Translations under genes and position numbers: made by a program
The notes under the pieces: model-generated
The model's input: only the letters and a program-made list of their open reading frames with translations
Databases searched by the model: none
Told to the model about the DNA's origin: nothing
Shown: one piece after another, positions 57,877-64,000 of the stretch
How positions within the stretch are numbered: position 1 is the first letter of the stretch
How the letters are laid out: each line of letters begins with the position of its first letter
Assembly (NCBI RefSeq): GCF_014635185.1
Contig: NZ_BMCM01000001.1
Location: forward strand, 1,116,001 to 1,180,000
Direction of reading: 5' to 3'
Length of the DNA stretch: 64,000 nt
Source of the DNA: Microbacterium murale
Lineage (GTDB): Bacteria; Actinomycetota; Actinomycetes; Actinomycetales; Microbacteriaceae

Positions 57877-59325
57877 TCAACGAACCGTTGCTCCGGCTGG
57901 GTGCAGAAGAACGGGCAGCGTGGCTCCGTCGCCTTTCGCGAACCTGCTCGGCCCGCACTGCAAGCAGCCTGGCTTCTGCGTAGGTTCGACCTCGACAGGT
58001 TCGTCCACCAACGGGTGATACATGGCCCATCGGTCGCGAGTGACATCAGCCTCGACGAGACCTCCGACAGCCATCAGCCAGTCATCCACGGCGCGCGATG
58101 CGGCGACGGCGTTCAGGGTGATGACGCTCGGCGCGTGCACAGCGTCGTCCTCGACGTACCGCTGCCGCCTGCGCTGTTCAGGGCTGGTGGCTTCTTCCGT
58201 GAGTTTCCAAGCCGGGATCAACCCGTTGCACTGCAGGCATCCGCTGCCCGGCGAGCTCATGCGCGATACCGAGAAGATGTCGGTGACCTCGCCGTTCTTC
58301 ACGCTCACCTTCGAACCGACCTGCGTGTGCGGCACGAGGTACTGGTGTGTGATGGAGTTCACCAGCCGGCGCACGAGCGCTGAGTCGGCTGCGAGGAAGA
58401 TGTGGTCGCAGTCCGTGAGCATCGCGGCGACGTCTGAATCGAGCACCGAACGAGGCACTGCCGTGATGCGAACGGTCGGCGATGCTTCCCGGGCCACCCG
58501 CGCGGCGATTCGCACTTTGAAGAATGCGATGCGGTCGCCAATCGTTCGAAGGAAGGCGGGCCTGCGCGGGTCGCGCAGCCAGGTCATCGCGTCGCTCCTT
58601 CTCGCCCCGACGACCCGGGGAAGGTTCGTCGGATCAATGCGGTCCGGATCGATGAGGATGAGTTCCCCGACCCCCAGCCGTGCCAGGTACTCGGAGATCA
58701 GGGACCCGGCACCTCCCAGTCCGACGACCGCGACCTTCGAACCGGCGAGCACGGCCTGACCGCGGTCCCCGAAGATGCGCGTCTGGCGGTCATAGCCCGG
58801 ATCGGCGATGGCCGCCGTGAGCGGGTTGGGGGTGAGTGTCATCTGAGGGCGGCCCGCCACTCGCAGGTGGGTGATCTCCGCGCGCTCACCTCCACCGAGC
58901 CAGATGTCGCCGGCGACCGCTCCCGTCGCGAACACCAATGCGCCGACGGGGACGCCGTCATTGATGTCGAGCAGCGCGGGGTACCCTCGCTCGTGCGACG
59001 CCATGTCCGTCGTCGAGAAGCCGACGTTGGCGTGCCCGCCGTGGTTGTGCACGGCAAGGTACGCGAGATCCTCGTCGGCGCAGACGTCGATGTTGTCTGC
59101 GACGAAGGATGCGGTCAGCTTCCGGTATCCGCGGTCTCCTGCGACGTAGTCGACGCCGTTCTCGGCCAGCACGACGTCACGAACGAGTAGACGGTTGCCG
59201 CGAGGGCTACGAGCGATGCCGCAGCGAAGAACCGCTCCGTGCTCATCGCGGTCCCCGGGAAACAGGTGGACACGGAGATCGTCCCACTGTTCCCCGGTCA
59301 TAACTACTGACCACGGACCGCTCAT
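57877..59325 (-). CDS. JAB-E1 fusion: JAMM peptidase plus ThiF/MoeB adenylating enzyme
   Basis: Protein of 482 residues joining two ubiquitin-pathway modules. The N-terminal JAB domain (1-165) has a JAMM-like metal site H93-x-H95 with S104 and D107, one residue longer between H and S than usual. The C-terminal E1-like Rossmann domain (185-480) has GLGGAGS at 202-208, 'LILIDPDRIDPTNLPR' and two zinc CxxC pairs (363/366, 454/457). No other cysteine lies between the pairs, where a catalytic one is normally found. The gene overlaps the E2-like gene by 4 bases and ends the operon. It would adenylate and/or cleave the ubiquitin-like protein encoded upstream. Confidence 0.87.
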   Translation of the reverse strand: MSGPWSVVMTGEQWDDLRVHLFPGDRDEHGAVLRCGIARSPRGNRLLVRDVVLAENGVDYVAGDRGYRKLTASFVADNIDVCADEDLAYLAVHNHGGHANVGFSTTDMASHERGYPALLDINDGVPVGALVFATGAVAGDIWLGGGERAEITHLRVAGRPQMTLTPNPLTAAIADPGYDRQTRIFGDRGQAVLAGSKVAVVGLGGAGSLISEYLARLGVGELILIDPDRIDPTNLPRVVGARRSDAMTWLRDPRRPAFLRTIGDRIAFFKVRIAARVAREASPTVRITAVPRSVLDSDVAAMLTDCDHIFLAADSALVRRLVNSITHQYLVPHTQVGSKVSVKNGEVTDIFSVSRMSSPGSGCLQCNGLIPAWKLTEEATSPEQRRRQRYVEDDAVHAPSVITLNAVAASRAVDDWLMAVGGLVEADVTRDRWAMYHPLVDEPVEVEPTQKPGCLQCGPSRFAKGDGATLPVLLHPAGATVR

Positions 59326-59717
59326 CGCTCCTCCAGCCAGCGGAGAACTTTCAGTGCCTTCGACGCCGCCGTGTCCACGGACGGGTCTAGGTTGTTGCTG
59401 CGCCGGGACAGCTGCATTGCCTGCGTGTTTTGCGGCCCGTACGACGTGATGGCGAACCCCTCCCGATGTGCGTTGCCGTCTACTCGCTGCAGGTCCGGCC
59501 TGATGAAGTGCGGGTAGACATCTGCTTCAGGGTAGGGATGCGTGATCTGGAACGCCATCCATGACGTCGGTGTGACGAATGCGGGACCCATCGGAACCTG
59601 GTCGATGGTTACCCAGGCACCGCCCTGACCGTCAGAGACGTGCGAGATGTCTGCTTCAGGAAAAGTCTCGCGGAGCTCGTCGATAGCGTTCAGGATCGCT
59701 TCGCTCGGGGCGCTCAC
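59322..59717 (-). CDS. E2-like protein without cysteine
   Basis: Protein of 131 residues resembling prokaryotic E2-fold proteins found beside multi-ubiquitin genes: beta-strand 'WMAFQITHPYPEADVYPHFI' followed by a loop 'RPDLQRVDGNAH' and a C-terminal helix. It contains no cysteine, so it cannot form a thioester like a classical E2. It may be a binding or scaffold protein. GTG start overlaps the upstream gene; the stop overlaps the E1 start. Fold assignment rests on context and the P-rich strand, not on clear identity. Confidence 0.65.
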   Translation of the reverse strand: MSAPSEAILNAIDELRETFPEADISHVSDGQGGAWVTIDQVPMGPAFVTPTSWMAFQITHPYPEADVYPHFIRPDLQRVDGNAHREGFAITSYGPQNTQAMQLSRRSNNLDPSVDTAASKALKVLRWLEER

Positions 59718-60349
59718 GAGTTATCGTCTCCGTTGACCGCGCGGAACTCGTCGTCACGGTGGACACGGATCTGCTCGTCATCGCCGACCGGCATGAAGTT
59801 CTTAGCCTTCTTGCGCAGAAGCAGGAAGTCGGCGCTGATGGCCACGCCCTGGGCGATGGCAGCGTCCTTAATCTGCTGACCAGCGTGGAGGCGCCCACTG
59901 AGGGTCACCGGCTTGCGGTTGACGATGATGCGAACCGTCACCGGTCGACTGAAGAAGCGGTCTTCGTCAGCGATGGTGACCACTTCCCCGTCCCGGATGG
60001 GGTCGTCGAGGTCGTCCTGCACGTCCTTCCATACCCCGTGGCTCTCGGGGATGGGCGGCTGGGGCAGCGCGCGCAGCTGGTCCTCGGTGATGCTGGTGGA
60101 TCGAATCTGGTAGGGGACCTTGTCGATGTAGATGATGAGCGCACGGTCGGTAAAGAAACGCACACCGTCCTTGAGCGCGATGGTCTCGGCGTCACCGACC
60201 AGGTGATCCTGAGCGTCGGGGACGTCAAGCCAGATCGTCTCGGCGACCGGGTCGAGAAGCGCGCGGAGCTGAGCGCCGGTGAGACGTCGCTTCGGCGCCT
60301 CGTACGGGCGGCTATCGATGATGATGCGGATAGAATCTGAAGATGCCAC
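59714..60349 (-). CDS. Triple ubiquitin-like repeat (multi-ubiquitin) protein
   Basis: Protein of 211 residues made of three tandem beta-grasp-like repeats at about 5-68, 70-136 and 138-208. Each opens with the same strand pattern: 'IRIIIDSRPYEAP', 'LIIYIDKVPYQI' and 'VRIIVNRKPVTL', and each ends near a Phe-rich strand (RFFTD, RFFSR, EFRAV). There is no Gly-Gly end; the tail is VNGDDNS, and a single Gly could be exposed by the JAB peptidase. GTG 60349 has GGAG 6 bases upstream; GTG 60391 is an alternative. Presumed modifier or scaffold of the ubiquitin-like operon. Confidence 0.82.
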   Translation of the reverse strand: MASSDSIRIIIDSRPYEAPKRRLTGAQLRALLDPVAETIWLDVPDAQDHLVGDAETIALKDGVRFFTDRALIIYIDKVPYQIRSTSITEDQLRALPQPPIPESHGVWKDVQDDLDDPIRDGEVVTIADEDRFFSRPVTVRIIVNRKPVTLSGRLHAGQQIKDAAIAQGVAISADFLLLRKKAKNFMPVGDDEQIRVHRDDEFRAVNGDDNS

Positions 60350-60436
60350 GATGGGCTCCGTTCTCTTGGTGGTGGTGAGGTTTGTCCCCACTCAAGAGAC
60401 CCAGACGGGACAGCTCCCGATCTGTCTAAGACTCGT

Positions 60437-61477
60437 CTACTCGCACTCCTTGCACACCGCTGAACCATCGCTGAACTGGCTGGTGTGCTTCACGAAGGTG
60501 CACGAGTCGCACATCTTCTCGAACAGCGTGGGAGCGGTACACCCGCAGTGATCGGCCGGGCACTTGGGCTTGCTGCAGGTGAGGCAGTGACGATGTACCT
60601 CGAAGTTCTTGCCGCATATGTCGCAGGTAGCCCAGCGGCTCGTACGGCGCAGCGCCGTGTTCTCCCTGGGCGGCGAGTAGCTCCGCCACGGCGCCGACTC
60701 TTCGACCATGACGACGAACAGTCTGTCTCCTGCCCACGCGGCCTGACCATAGAGCTCATTCGTCGAGTGACCTGACGAGTACCAGATCCGCGCGTCGTCC
60801 CGCGACCACACACGGTTTGGGTCGGGATCTTCAAGCGCGGCTCGAATGAGCGGGTTCTCGCTCTGGTCACTCAAACGTGCAGGCGCGTAAATAGACCCTC
60901 GGGCGGCGGCGAAGGTCACGATGCCGACATCGTTGACGACAGCTACTGCCCCGGCGCCGCGCAACCGGCCCGCCATGCGGACGCTGATTGCAGCACGGGA
61001 CGCGTTGGATGTGCCGAACAGATCAACCGCCGTCTGGGCGCTCGGGCCTCCGAAAGGAATGCTCGCTTCATCCACCATGTCGTCAGGCAGGAGAATGTTC
61101 GCGGCGAACACATCGCACGCGGCGTCCTCGAAGCCTGATCTGTCCTGTTGCCGCAGGACAGCCTTTCCCAGGCTCACGGTGGTGCGTTGTAGATGATGCC
61201 CGAGTTCGTGCAGGACGGTGAACTGTTGCCGACGTCTCGACATCGACTCGGTGACGATGAGCGTCGGCGGTGAGTGCCGGTATCCTCCTGCGACAGAGCA
61301 CCCGAGCTGTGAGTCGCTGGGAACGAATTCAGGTACGCGGAGTACCTCCAAGTCATCACGGCGCTCGAGGACGTCGAAGGCGTCAAGTGTCAGCGCCTCA
61401 GTCGAACCACCTGCCGCCGCCCATGCGGCCCTCATGGCGTCCGCCTGAGTTTGTGCGTCAGGAAAGAAGCGCGGCAT
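60437..61477 (-). CDS. ImmA/IrrE-type metallopeptidase with C-terminal treble-clef-like zinc cluster
   Basis: Protein of 346 residues. The peptidase part has the zinc motif HELGH at 90-94 and a third ligand in 'FEDAACDVFAANILLP' (about E117). The C-terminus (285-345) is packed with Cys and His: C285, C288, C298, C301, C306, H310, C311, C313, C323, C326, C342, C345, like a binuclear treble-clef or RING-like domain. IrrE/ImmA enzymes cleave repressor proteins after stress. The ATG has GGAGAG 6 bases upstream and overlaps the Xre-like stop. Confidence 0.87.
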   Translation of the reverse strand: MPRFFPDAQTQADAMRAAWAAAGGSTEALTLDAFDVLERRDDLEVLRVPEFVPSDSQLGCSVAGGYRHSPPTLIVTESMSRRRQQFTVLHELGHHLQRTTVSLGKAVLRQQDRSGFEDAACDVFAANILLPDDMVDEASIPFGGPSAQTAVDLFGTSNASRAAISVRMAGRLRGAGAVAVVNDVGIVTFAAARGSIYAPARLSDQSENPLIRAALEDPDPNRVWSRDDARIWYSSGHSTNELYGQAAWAGDRLFVVMVEESAPWRSYSPPRENTALRRTSRWATCDICGKNFEVHRHCLTCSKPKCPADHCGCTAPTLFEKMCDSCTFVKHTSQFSDGSAVCKECE

Positions 61478-62352
61478 CAATCGCTCTCCGTCGCCATCAA
61501 CGCTTCGAGCCGCTGTCGCCAGATGTCGCGGCCGGCGCCGGATTGCCGTGCCGCGAGTTGGTAAATGTCGTAGCCGAGCCGCATTCGACCAGCCGCCTCG
61601 TCTCCTCCTACCGCACGTCTCTGGATGCCACGCCGCCACCGCGGTTCTTGGAGCTCTCGACAGAGATCTGCTGGCAGCGGCCGCACCGCCTGCATGATGT
61701 CAGTCGCAGATACGCCGGTTGTGTCGGCGAGAGTTTCTGCTTCCTCTACTGAAAGGGGCTCTGACCCCATCACGATATCCATTGCTCGTGACTGGTTGAC
61801 GCCCAGCGCGTCCATAACGATTTCCAGGTCCAAGTCGAGCCGGGCTGAGTTCGTCGTGTTGCGATCCAGTTCGAAGCGCGGGGCGAGTTCCATGGCGTCA
61901 ACAGCGTCGAAAAGCTGGTCAATGGCTCGGGCCGCACCTGATCCGGCTTCGGGGCTAGATTCATGCGGTTCCGAGAGTGTTCTTCCTGCGGTCTCGACGA
62001 TGGCAAGCAACGTTGGTCCGAGCGTCTCGAGGAGGTTGTCGAGCGCGGCGAAAGGAATCCAATGCCCTTGCCGCGGCCAGATAGCGAGGGCGCTGGGCAG
62101 TGGACTTTCGAGCTCATCTACGATGAGTGATTCGGAGTTGCGTACTCCCGGTTCCACGCTGACTGGGAGGACGTGAGCCAGCGCACTCGCATCGTCAACT
62201 TCGTCGACGAGCACGATGGCGTCGGAGTTGGCCCACGTTGCTTGTCGCAGCTGTCCCCGTGCGACCTCGCACGAAAACGTGTGACTGACGAGCTCGGGGA
62301 CGGCGAACTGAGCCGCGAGTTCGAACCAGCGGTTATTGGCATCAGTTGGCAC
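61477..62352 (-). CDS. Xre-like regulatory protein of the ubiquitin-like operon
   Basis: Protein of 291 residues. A long N-terminal part of unknown fold (about 1-170) precedes a Cro/C1-like helix-turn-helix at about 177-220: 'ALGVNQSRAMDIVMGSEPLS' and 'EEAETLADTTGVSATDI'. Xre-type proteins paired with ImmA/IrrE peptidases are usual cleavage substrates, so this may be the repressor cut by the neighbouring enzyme. GTG 62352 has GGGAGG 6 bases upstream; GTG 62370 and ATG 62358 are alternatives. Confidence 0.6.
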   Translation of the reverse strand: MPTDANNRWFELAAQFAVPELVSHTFSCEVARGQLRQATWANSDAIVLVDEVDDASALAHVLPVSVEPGVRNSESLIVDELESPLPSALAIWPRQGHWIPFAALDNLLETLGPTLLAIVETAGRTLSEPHESSPEAGSGAARAIDQLFDAVDAMELAPRFELDRNTTNSARLDLDLEIVMDALGVNQSRAMDIVMGSEPLSVEEAETLADTTGVSATDIMQAVRPLPADLCRELQEPRWRRGIQRRAVGGDEAAGRMRLGYDIYQLAARQSGAGRDIWRQRLEALMATESD

Positions 62353-63310
62353 GTTCATCCTCCCTGTCACTGTGAAGAGACGGGACAGCGCCCGCTTCGT
62401 CCAGCACGAGCTCTACGACAGCAGCCATGATCTCACGGGAGTTCGGCTCTGCTCCGGCGAGCTCCTGCAGCCTCTCTCGTAGGCGCGTAGCGGCAGTGTA
62501 GGCCGACGAGCGCGAGCACGCGAGAACCTCAGCGAGCCTGTCCATGTCACCTCGATGACAGATGACCGCCTTCTCCTTTTCGGTGAGCATCGGCACTAGG
62601 CCTGCCGCGATGCGTTCTGACCGGATTCTCGTCGCGGTCTCGAAGACGGAGTCGTCGCTCTCCCGGGTGTCTTCGATGACCTCCCACTCGGTATTCACAA
62701 CGGAGAGGGATGCGTCGCGTTGTTGCAAAGCGAGGGGGAACCGGTTCCCGCAGATCACCGTGATTTCCGCGACATGGAGGCGCCCGGCCAGGTCGAGCAG
62801 TCGGTGCAGGAGCTCTTCAAGCTCACCTGGCGCACCAAGCACCACCTTGCCGCTGGGTTCGGTGCGTACCGCGACGTGGGTCGCGGCTGCGGCCGCTTCA
62901 AGGTCGGACACAGGCACAGACCGCCCTTCATCTTCACCGCCTGTCAGGTACCAATGGTGAAGGGCCGAGGAGGGTGAGAACAGGTCGCTGCGCTCGAGCC
63001 GCTTCTCGATCCGATTGCGCAATGCTCCGAAGGGTAGCTTGCGCGCTTCGTCGACCAGCCAGTTCGTCGCCCAGGCATAAGTGATTCGTCGCGCGGCCGC
63101 GTCGTCGGACGCTGCGAGCACCGCGGTGACGTAGGACTTGCCCTTCGCGACGAAGAAGCCCTGTACCAGATCGTCAACGCTCTCCCGAGCGCGGATCGTG
63201 GCAAACTTCGCGATGAGCAAGGAGAACACGTCCCGCATCAGATCGAGCGCCGCTGGTCCCAGTTGACCGCCGCGCTGACTCGCCTCGTCTCTTATTCGTG
63301 TCGTTGACAC
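62342..63310 (-). CDS. Sigma-70-factor-like protein
   Basis: Protein of about 322 residues. A helical region near 22-108 contains 'SVDDLVQGFFVAKGKSYVTA' and 'ARRITYAWATNWLVDEARKL', resembling sigma region 2. A region-4-like helix-turn-helix at 242-284 reads 'LTEKEKAVICHRGDMDRLAE' and 'VLACSRSSAYTAATRLRERL'. It may direct RNA polymerase to operon or defence promoters. GTG 63310 has AAGGGGG a few bases upstream; ATG 63385 or 63400 would add 25-30 residues with CxC. Assignment as a sigma factor is tentative. Confidence 0.5.
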   Translation of the reverse strand: MSTTRIRDEASQRGGQLGPAALDLMRDVFSLLIAKFATIRARESVDDLVQGFFVAKGKSYVTAVLAASDDAAARRITYAWATNWLVDEARKLPFGALRNRIEKRLERSDLFSPSSALHHWYLTGGEDEGRSVPVSDLEAAAAATHVAVRTEPSGKVVLGAPGELEELLHRLLDLAGRLHVAEITVICGNRFPLALQQRDASLSVVNTEWEVIEDTRESDDSVFETATRIRSERIAAGLVPMLTEKEKAVICHRGDMDRLAEVLACSRSSAYTAATRLRERLQELAGAEPNSREIMAAVVELVLDEAGAVPSLHSDREDERAN

Positions 63311-63637
63311 TTTCCCCCTTCGCGCGTTCACCCAGACGCGCACGGCAGAACCGCAATCACACAGTAGGACGGCAGGGTCCGACATGCCGGTATCTAGCAT
63401 GGCGCGTTCGAACTGAACCTGAATCCATCGTCCTCGTCATGAACCAACCCCGGGAGGCGCACCTTCCAATCGAAACGGCCTGCGCAAGGCGCATGGTGTC
63501 GATGCCTGGCTTGGAGCCTCGGTCTGGTTCGCGGATACGGAACGCGAAAGTTGGTGTTTCAGCGCCGCAGCCAGAGCGCTCTCGAGCGCTCCGCCCGTAC
63601 TGCACGGAGTTCCAGTCGCTCAAGCAATTGAAGAGAG
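63311..63637. other. Gap with no convincing gene
   Basis: This stretch separates the short operon gene at 63638-63811 from the sigma-like gene. The sigma-like frame stays open through its first 90 bases, so part of it may be coding if an earlier start is used. I see no other credible gene, clear terminator or repeat; a promoter for the sigma-like gene could lie here. Confidence 0.5.
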
Positions 63638-63811
63638 TTAGCGGCGGACATCTGGCCCTTCCGTCAGATCGCGGTCCCTAACGGAGGACGGTCGACTACC
63701 TGGCGGTGTGGCATCGACGACTGCCCGCGAATGACGCAGTGCGTCGCTGAACCAGCTGATCTCACGGATGTCGCTGGCCACTCTGGAGCGTTCTTCAGCG
63801 TGACTACTCAT
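63638..63811 (-). CDS. Small hypothetical protein in ubiquitin-like operon
   Basis: A 57-residue reading frame beginning 'MSSHAEERSRVASDIREISW', with helical N-terminal half and a basic, Pro-containing C-terminal half (VRDRDLTEGPDVRR). Its ATG overlaps the stop of the upstream gene (ATGA) and has AGGAAGG 6 bases upstream, so it is probably translated. No function can be assigned. Confidence 0.6.
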   Translation of the reverse strand: MSSHAEERSRVASDIREISWFSDALRHSRAVVDATPPGSRPSSVRDRDLTEGPDVRR

Positions 63812-64000
63812 GACTCGCCTTCCTTCTTTTCGACCGCACCTTCGGATTCTGCTCTTTCTTCTGGCGCTTCGCTAGCTTCTGTCTCTACTTCAGTCCTACC
63901 AAGGACGTCGGACATGACGATTGTGATCGCCGCTTCGCGAGCTGCAGGGTTCGCCAGCGGCTCGGCGTCGGCCAGCGTGAATCTGGACTTCTGCTTGTCG
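63808..64000 (-). CDS. Hypothetical protein, C-terminal part (runs off the window)
   Basis: The last 63 residues of a gene whose start lies beyond the right edge. It reads 'KSRFTLADAEPLANPAAREA' followed by 'AITIVMSDVLGRTE' and a very acidic Glu/Ala/Lys tail ending KKEGES. The 4-base overlap with the next small gene puts it in the same operon as the ubiquitin-like genes. Function unknown. Confidence 0.65.
   Translation of the reverse strand, partial: DKQKSRFTLADAEPLANPAAREAAITIVMSDVLGRTEVETEASEAPEERAESEGAVEKKEGES

Follow-up and report, generated by a model that had tools for sequence, protein, structure and literature searches.

How does a bacterial operon for ubiquitin-like conjugation stay silent, and how does it then get turned on? 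This question, which bears on immune operons in general, is raised by positions 57877..64000 of a 64,000-nucleotide stretch of the Microbacterium murale genome (RefSeq assembly GCF_014635185.1, contig NZ_BMCM01000001.1, positions 1,116,001 to 1,180,000), the whole of which is referred to here as the window. In this region, an operon for a triple ubiquitin-like (Ubl) protein, an E2-like protein and a JAB-E1 fusion is preceded by genes for a sigma-like protein (sig), a helix-turn-helix (HTH) protein (xre) and an ImmA/IrrE peptidase (pep). We propose, with a probability of about 0.6, that the three upstream genes encode a portable switch for immune operons, in which a protease is combined with a sigma factor and the antagonist of that factor; here the switch stands in front of a Bub operon. 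In its wider form, which we also favor by somewhat better than even odds, the proposal is that of a dedicated "immune sigma factor" encoded by a mobile actinobacterial cassette before ubiquitin-like, E2-CBASS and 6A-MBL-like operons, which would be released by a triggered protease and would have its own class of promoter.

An earlier, sequence-only reading of this DNA had described minus-strand genes lying head to tail, with an eighth cut by the window edge, and all eight open reading frames (ORFs) do exist in 57877..64000. Its statement that they mostly share four-base overlaps holds for JAB-E1/E2, E2/Ubl and the deaminase/57-residue ORF pair; it does not hold for pep and the Ubl gene, which are separated by 87 bp containing a promoter-like element. 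The likelier starts of sig, xre, pep and the triple Ubl gene were judged from ribosome-binding sites and homologues. A second copy of the stretch was not found in the same genome, where its sole match was itself. The features are as follows.

62342..63310, minus strand: sig, predicted divergent sigma-70-family factor, from alignments and predicted fold (GTG start at 63310; frame open to 63400)
62379..62402, minus strand: promoter-like element 1, GGAC-N16-CGTC, inside the 3' end of the sig gene, a short distance upstream of xre
61477..62358, minus strand: xre, MazF-like barrel with XRE-type HTH and C-terminal helices, as modeled (ATG at 62358; frame open from 62370)
60437..61477, minus strand: pep, ImmA/IrrE (M78) metallopeptidase, CapP-like, with a cysteine-rich C-terminal region (Pfam, PADLOC; ATG at 61477)
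60404..60427, minus strand: promoter-like element 2, AGAC-N16-CGTC, in the gap that divides pep from the Bub genes
59714..60349, minus strand: bubA-like, three tandem ubiquitin-like (Multi_ubiq) domains (Pfam, 9cd2; GTG start at 60349)
59322..59717, minus strand: bubB-like, E2/RWD-like protein without cysteine (weak Pfam and BubB matches)
57877..59325, minus strand: bubCD-like, JAB deconjugase fused to a ThiF/E1 adenylation domain (Pfam ThiF, 9ea4)
63808..64000, minus strand: 3' end of the gene for a probable anti-phage dCTP deaminase with an acidic C-terminal tail (NCBIfam, PADLOC)
63638..63811, minus strand: 57-residue ORF, probably not a gene (family scans, locus search)

The sigma/xre/peptidase cassette

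The sig protein is predicted, from its modeled fold, to be a divergent sigma-70-family factor with regions 2 and 4 and a middle domain. The window protein has no Pfam family at E 1 and scores 13.2 bits against the NCBIfam sigma70-ECF model, below the cut-off of 42.9. A distant homologue at locus L030, which matches the sig profile at 6.8e-14, passes both Sigma70_r4_2 (28.6 against a cut-off of 25.7) and Sigma70_r4 (24.9 against 24.1). At that locus (L030:4080-6203), the sigma gene is followed by one for an Hx3Cx2C-finger protein, the pair is divergent from a Ubl operon, and no match to the pep-family peptidase was found. Transcription of sig is probably constitutive and driven by a promoter of the housekeeping type; such promoters upstream of sig were judged by eye alone.

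The xre proteins are 293-297 residues long, and the model (pLDDT 87.9) has the MazF fold, with 11-21% identity to MazF chains among the structural matches listed; the alignments show this barrel joined to an HTH and to helical parts. The window protein has no Pfam family at E 1 and no PADLOC match at E 0.1. A zf-HC2-type signature is absent from it, as judged by eye, and from all 24 actinobacterial xre proteins scanned. The sister-class homologue at L093 matches zf-HC2 itself (23.6 bits; cut-off, 22.2), and the L092 and L022 homologues have the finger by signature, without a zf-HC2 match. The most likely identity of xre is an anti-sigma factor combining a MazF-like barrel with an HTH.

The pep protein scores 32 bits against Peptidase_M78 (cut-off, 22). 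It matches CapP (PADLOC capP, 9.4e-14; 7t5t, 1.8e-6), and its peptidase domain matches 3dte (6.2e-15) and 8slm (8.1e-15). The L067 peptidase had no match at E 1e-10 in phage records. A gene for a fused HTH-M78 peptidase lies just upstream of a sister-class cassette (L022:11651-12844).

A peptidase profile built from four sequences of cassette loci was scanned against genome contigs and matched at least 596 stretches, among which at least 26 named actinobacterial loci were found. Among the matches listed, sigma, xre and pep genes are adjacent in that order in 22 of the 26, with a largest sigma-xre gap of 247 bp (L080); since all profile queries came from cassette loci, this fraction describes relatives of pep rather than all IrrE peptidases. 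In the remaining four, L064 starts near a contig edge, L084 is a fragment, and L081 and L082 have xre and pep without a recognizable sigma gene. These last two pairs (L081:7034-8948 and L082:7027-8897) lack the DNA element described below as well and may represent a two-gene ancestor or a relic. The sequence-only reading had suggested a neighborhood survey in actinobacteria and would have been abandoned had the genes never occurred together; they do, and their co-occurrence is not a matter of chance.

The cassette is rare in the sampled genomes. Of 248 genomes in the order, 3 have the sigma protein, with the M. murale genome counted, and near-full-length xre was found in 3 of 150 genomes of the window's family (own counted, one copy broken) and in 4 of 297 genomes of the family of G425. 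A search of the order of G664 (35 genomes) found no new full-length xre. Plasmids of Mycolicibacterium, Streptomyces and Sinomonas also carry the cassette; in their annotation, the sigma genes appear as "hypothetical protein" and the xre genes either so or as "helix-turn-helix transcriptional regulator." In M. chubuense (L166), the sigma gene is reduced to a remnant and the peptidase gene is in pieces. A search of open-access full texts, which is not proof of absence, found no description of a sigma/xre/pep cassette among the titles listed, and this regulatory half of the locus looks new.

Promoter-like elements at the two junctions

A conserved DNA element after the peptidase gene was first noticed by eye. 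In one set of loci, group 1, which includes the window, it reads GGAC-N16-CGTC and stands both before xre and before the effector operon. When spacers of 12 to 20 were scanned with the pattern GGA[CGT]...CGT[CT], a spacer of 16 was found in 8 of 31 scanned stretches before xre and in 9 of 31 after pep (about 0.5 expected for each), and other spacers gave 0 to 2; the effector-side copy in M. murale starts with AGAC and so lies outside the spacer-16 count. The strict group-1 pattern with a TGTCC block, which does pick up that copy, matched 10 times across all loci, 6 times after pep and 4 times just before xre. In the sister class (group 3), the element is [AG]GACAG-N15-CGTT, with a spacer of 17, at six of six sites and nowhere else in 88,006 strand-bases, a pattern that had been derived from the loci on which it was scanned; with other spacers from 11 to 21, it matched nothing. 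In groups 1 and 3, the target genes thus have a conserved two-block element of promoter-like form.

In group 2 (Streptomyces and others), the block is another one, ACGTCGTC[C/T]G and relatives. It stands at both junctions in L066-L077 and ahead of xre in L020, and no two-block (-35/-10) reading was obtainable for it. The xre-side element often falls inside the final part of the sigma coding sequence, which runs through it in one frame in group 1 (AVPS) and in another in group 2 (RLSQV); conservation is therefore at the DNA level. Group labels were assigned by eye, with L061 (TGTC at -10) and L054 and L055 (GGAG, effector side only) placed in group 1. In L064 and L078-L083, the stretch after pep showed none of these elements.

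Across the 3.9 Mb of the M. murale genome, GAC-N11-TGTCCCGTC was found at three places, of which two are the cassette sites, and a reversed control pattern occurs once. The third occurrence (G000:C2:250120-250142, L087) lies outside the cassette and may be due to chance. Among 10 Ubl loci fetched without the full cassette, the five used as controls had no spaced element within 300 bp (0/5); L023 has a group-2 core at -146.

Among loci fetched later, the element follows pep in all four of L160-L163, as the group-2 form in L160 and the group-1 form in the other three; before xre it is clear in L160 and L162, starts with AGAC in L161, and has a 17-base spacer, read by eye, in L163. Plasmid loci L166-L169 have it at both sites (4/4), and it precedes the effector genes in all seven later-fetched cassettes with sigma genes (L160-L163 and L167-L169). 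Because L168 is close to L071 and the patterns had been slightly widened, these loci are a confirmation and not a blind test. In L165, which has a broken xre and no sigma match, no element was found.

For a sigma protein tree of 31 rows, the C-terminal 50 residues, where the element codons lie, were removed. A single branch separates each of the three element classes from the others (support, 95/87, 100/99 and 81/47). The element classes need 2 changes on this tree, the fewest possible, and the effector types need 7; the element tracks the sigma factor rather than the effector. Loci L078, L079, L080 and L083, which have no element class, were left out, and on a quick tree that included them four classes needed 5 changes. 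In many loci, the window among them (60349-60404), the DNA leading from the element to the start of the effector genes seems, by eye, to contain a short G+C-rich stem-loop with TGA ahead of it.

Effector operons and neighboring genes

The triple Ubl protein scores 63.4 bits against Pfam Multi_ubiq (PF14452; cut-off, 24.5) over two stretches and matches the solved multi-ubiquitin protein 9cd2 (E 2.5e-6, profile positions 11-216); scanned against viral contigs, it had no match. The JAB-E1 protein scores 105.1 bits against ThiF (cut-off, 28.1) and aligns nearly end to end with Citrobacter BubCD (9ea4; E 6.1e-30, profile positions 12-476 of 479). A JAB family match was not found in the Pfam scan; residues E28, H93, H95, S104 and D107, which form a JAMM-type set, are invariant in all four aligned sequences. 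The E2-like protein scores 15.6 bits against Prok-E2_E (cut-off, 25) and weakly matches Citrobacter BubB (9eae; E 0.02). It has no cysteine in any of the four aligned sequences, and a thioester step on it therefore looks impossible; read from these sequences, conjugation by this type of Bub must use a chemistry other than that of classical E2s.

The earlier description was right in seeing a polyubiquitin-like/E2-like/JAB-E1 operon that has sigma-like, HTH and metallopeptidase regulators of its own. That reading had also called the pathway uncharacterized, and here it fell short, since the core is of the type 6e/Bub kind, with Citrobacter BubCD and BubB solved. Judged by its sequence, the effector half is a Bub operon of an already known kind, the polyUbl type 6e of Iyer et al. 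2006, whose arrangement includes, in the available part of that source, an "inactive E2-/RWD like" protein (PMC1779556). The triple Ubl, E2/RWD-like and JAB-E1 fusion genes in a single operon are common to both; the M. murale operon differs in being preceded by the sigma/anti-sigma-like/peptidase cassette, a set not named in the available parts of PMC1779556 or PMC13373217. The latter, in the same part, catalogues 544 Bub operons; CapW or CapH+CapP accompanies 219 of these, and CapK+CapS accompanies 59. It also states that phage protection by Bub has not been demonstrated.

Four kinds of effector operon follow the cassette. The triple Ubl, E2-like and JAB-E1 type (a) is found in the window, L026 and L059 and, by annotation, in L166. 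Type (b), Ubl with DUF6791-ThiF and DUF6527, was identified by Pfam in L019 and L022 and by similarity to these in L060, L072 and L077; partial versions occur in L073 (no DUF6527 match) and in L071 and, by annotation, L168 (ThiF and DUF6527, with the Ubl not identified). Type (c) is CBASS. The L054 operon scores in PADLOC for cyclase (578.5 bits), E2 (261.1 bits) and 1TM effector (90.5 bits), and cyclase and E2 also score for L062, L069 and L074. All three L054 proteins are matched in L062, L063, L065, L069, L076 and L161-L163 and two of them in L061 and L075, and L055 is nearly identical to L054. Pfam SMODS is above cut-off in L074, L092 and L093, whereas L054 and L069 fall just short of it. 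The weak E2-like matches found in relatives had no Pfam match and were settled by PADLOC. In L064, L070 and L160, only the E2 and membrane-protein genes were matched, and in L066 the membrane protein alone, with the rest read by eye. Type (d), in L067, is a 6A-MBL-like operon in which an MBL-like gene, itself below the Pfam cut-off, is accompanied by a single gene that matches Prok-E2_A, ThiF and JAB, each above cut-off. An annotated nucleotidyltransferase follows in L169 and hypothetical proteins follow in L167; L020 is cut by a contig end, and no recognized effector was found behind L068 or L078-L083. A small DUF3892 gene comes first after the group-2 element in Streptomyces loci L067, L068, L071 and L168 (by Pfam in L068, by annotation in L168 and by eye in L067 and L071). 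In L059, from a Leifsonia relative, a TPR-HEPN (LA2681-like) gene follows the Bub genes (L059:11852-13501); L164 is very probably the same strain and was left uncounted.

Directly upstream of the cassette, on the same strand, lies the gene for the protein that the sequence-only reading had described by its acidic tail. The tail, a long C-terminal one, is present, and the protein can now be given a probable identity, that of an anti-phage dCTP deaminase: its whole frame (L002:6808-8364, equal to G000:C1:1179808-1181364) scores 444.7 bits in PADLOC dCTPase and 381.9 bits against an NCBIfam equivalog over nearly the full model (cut-off, 400). It was not matched in the 14 related loci searched, L026 included, and is a neighbor, not a conserved cassette member. 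The 57-residue ORF, which had been listed as a gene, is probably none, with no family match and nothing in those 14 loci. L026 is very probably a plasmid of Mycolicibacterium crocinum, and L170 is very probably the same record; here the place of the deaminase, directly upstream of the cassette and Bub operon, is taken by genes for an AAA ATPase and an S8 subtilase (L026:11981-15513). The sequence just before sig in L059 resembles its L026 counterpart by eye.

The proposed switch, its rivals and known regulators

The data support a conserved cassette, its modular linkage to several effector types, predicted sigma and MazF folds, an anti-sigma-type finger in relatives, and paired elements that follow sigma ancestry. 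We infer that sig is expressed constitutively and that, in resting cells, the MazF-barrel/HTH protein xre binds and holds the sigma factor. A stress signal, perhaps tied to DNA damage and possibly single-stranded DNA by analogy with IrrE/PprI and CapP, would activate the IrrE-like pep, which would cleave xre and free the sigma factor. The freed sigma factor would then bring RNA polymerase to a pair of promoters that belong to its own GGAC-N16-CGTC class. Promoter 1 would renew xre and pep, giving feedback and shut-off, and promoter 2 would fire the effector operon, whose JAB-E1 and E2-like proteins may attach or remove the triple Ubl. The sequence-only reading had the peptidase switching on both regulators by cleavage. 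Cleavage is likely; the evidence favors a sigma factor held by the second protein over two separately cleaved regulators. As that reading supposed, the pathway is probably inducible. A defensive role, which might extend to phage protection, is plausible by the company that the operon keeps, with the dCTP deaminase next door.

The chief competitor, which we consider doubtful, is repression of the CapH/CapP kind, in which xre would be an HTH repressor bound to the elements, pep would cleave it to derepress the operon, and the sigma-like protein would be accessory or degenerate. It draws on the CapP matches of pep and on the XRE-type HTH of xre, where most of the weak profile matches in other genomes fall; some elements are also partly palindromic by eye (GGAC...GTCC), and the CapH+CapP pair is already known to regulate CBASS and Bub operons (PMC13373217, in the part available). 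Against it stand the sigma gene, present in 22 of 26 loci among the matches listed; the two-block elements with a sharp 16- or 17-base spacer, which in L019, L065 and the sister class do not look palindromic; and the build of xre, an approximately 300-residue MazF-barrel protein with anti-sigma-type fingers in relatives. An Xre repressor alone was rejected as the lead explanation on the sigma gene, the two-block elements and the barrel architecture.

It is improbable that the barrel of xre is an active ribonuclease and that the three genes form a toxin-antitoxin-like module with variable neighbors. Identity to MazF chains is low, the barrel is fused to HTH and helical parts, and what we take to be the MazF catalytic arginine region seems lost in a shortened loop. 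An active MazF toxin, which would also leave the linkage to Ub-like and E2-CBASS operons and the common element needing another explanation, was rejected as the lead on identity, fusion, linkage and element. Least probable of all is a mere clustering of defense genes with no regulatory link, for which the adjoining deaminase and the defense-like AAA and S8 genes flanking L026 could be cited, against the fixed gene order across families and plasmids and the single-class element at both junctions that follows sigma ancestry.

If the sigma-factor switch is real, it would be common to Bub, CBASS and MBL-like operons and would provide positive, amplifying control, and the immune regulon would be definable by a readable promoter. 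This could offer a handle for finding and inducing silent immune systems in Streptomyces and relatives. A further prediction is an anti-sigma architecture of a new kind, built around a MazF-like barrel, and the proposed switch bears directly on when Bub is expressed.

The cassette resembles CapH+CapP in having an IrrE/CapP-type peptidase and an HTH protein just upstream of CBASS or Bub operons. It differs in its HTH protein, which is about 300 residues long with a MazF-like barrel, whereas CapH is a small protein, and in the additional sigma factor and two sigma-type promoter-like elements. With extracytoplasmic function (ECF) sigma/anti-sigma pairs released by regulated proteolysis, it has in common a predicted sigma-like fold, an adjacent proposed anti-sigma factor and a zf-HC2 finger in relatives; ECF promoters are also comparable to the -35/-10-like elements with their spacers of 16 to 17 bases. 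Release in the ECF pairs relies on membrane proteases, whereas the cassette has a cytosolic IrrE-type peptidase, and the cassette sigma factor has a long stretch between regions 2 and 4 and immune operons as its proposed targets. The peptidase domain of pep (3dte, 8slm) is common to the IrrE/PprI-DdrO system, in which regulator cleavage by PprI is stimulated by single-stranded DNA according to the part of PMC10904395 available; the proposed substrate of pep is an anti-sigma factor rather than DdrO. CapW/BrxR and CapK+CapS are likewise portable regulators before diverse immune operons (PMC13373217, in the same part as above). Their proteins are unrelated to those of the cassette, and, as described there for CapW, CapH+CapP and CapK+CapS, they act by lifting repression, whereas the cassette would act through a dedicated sigma factor.

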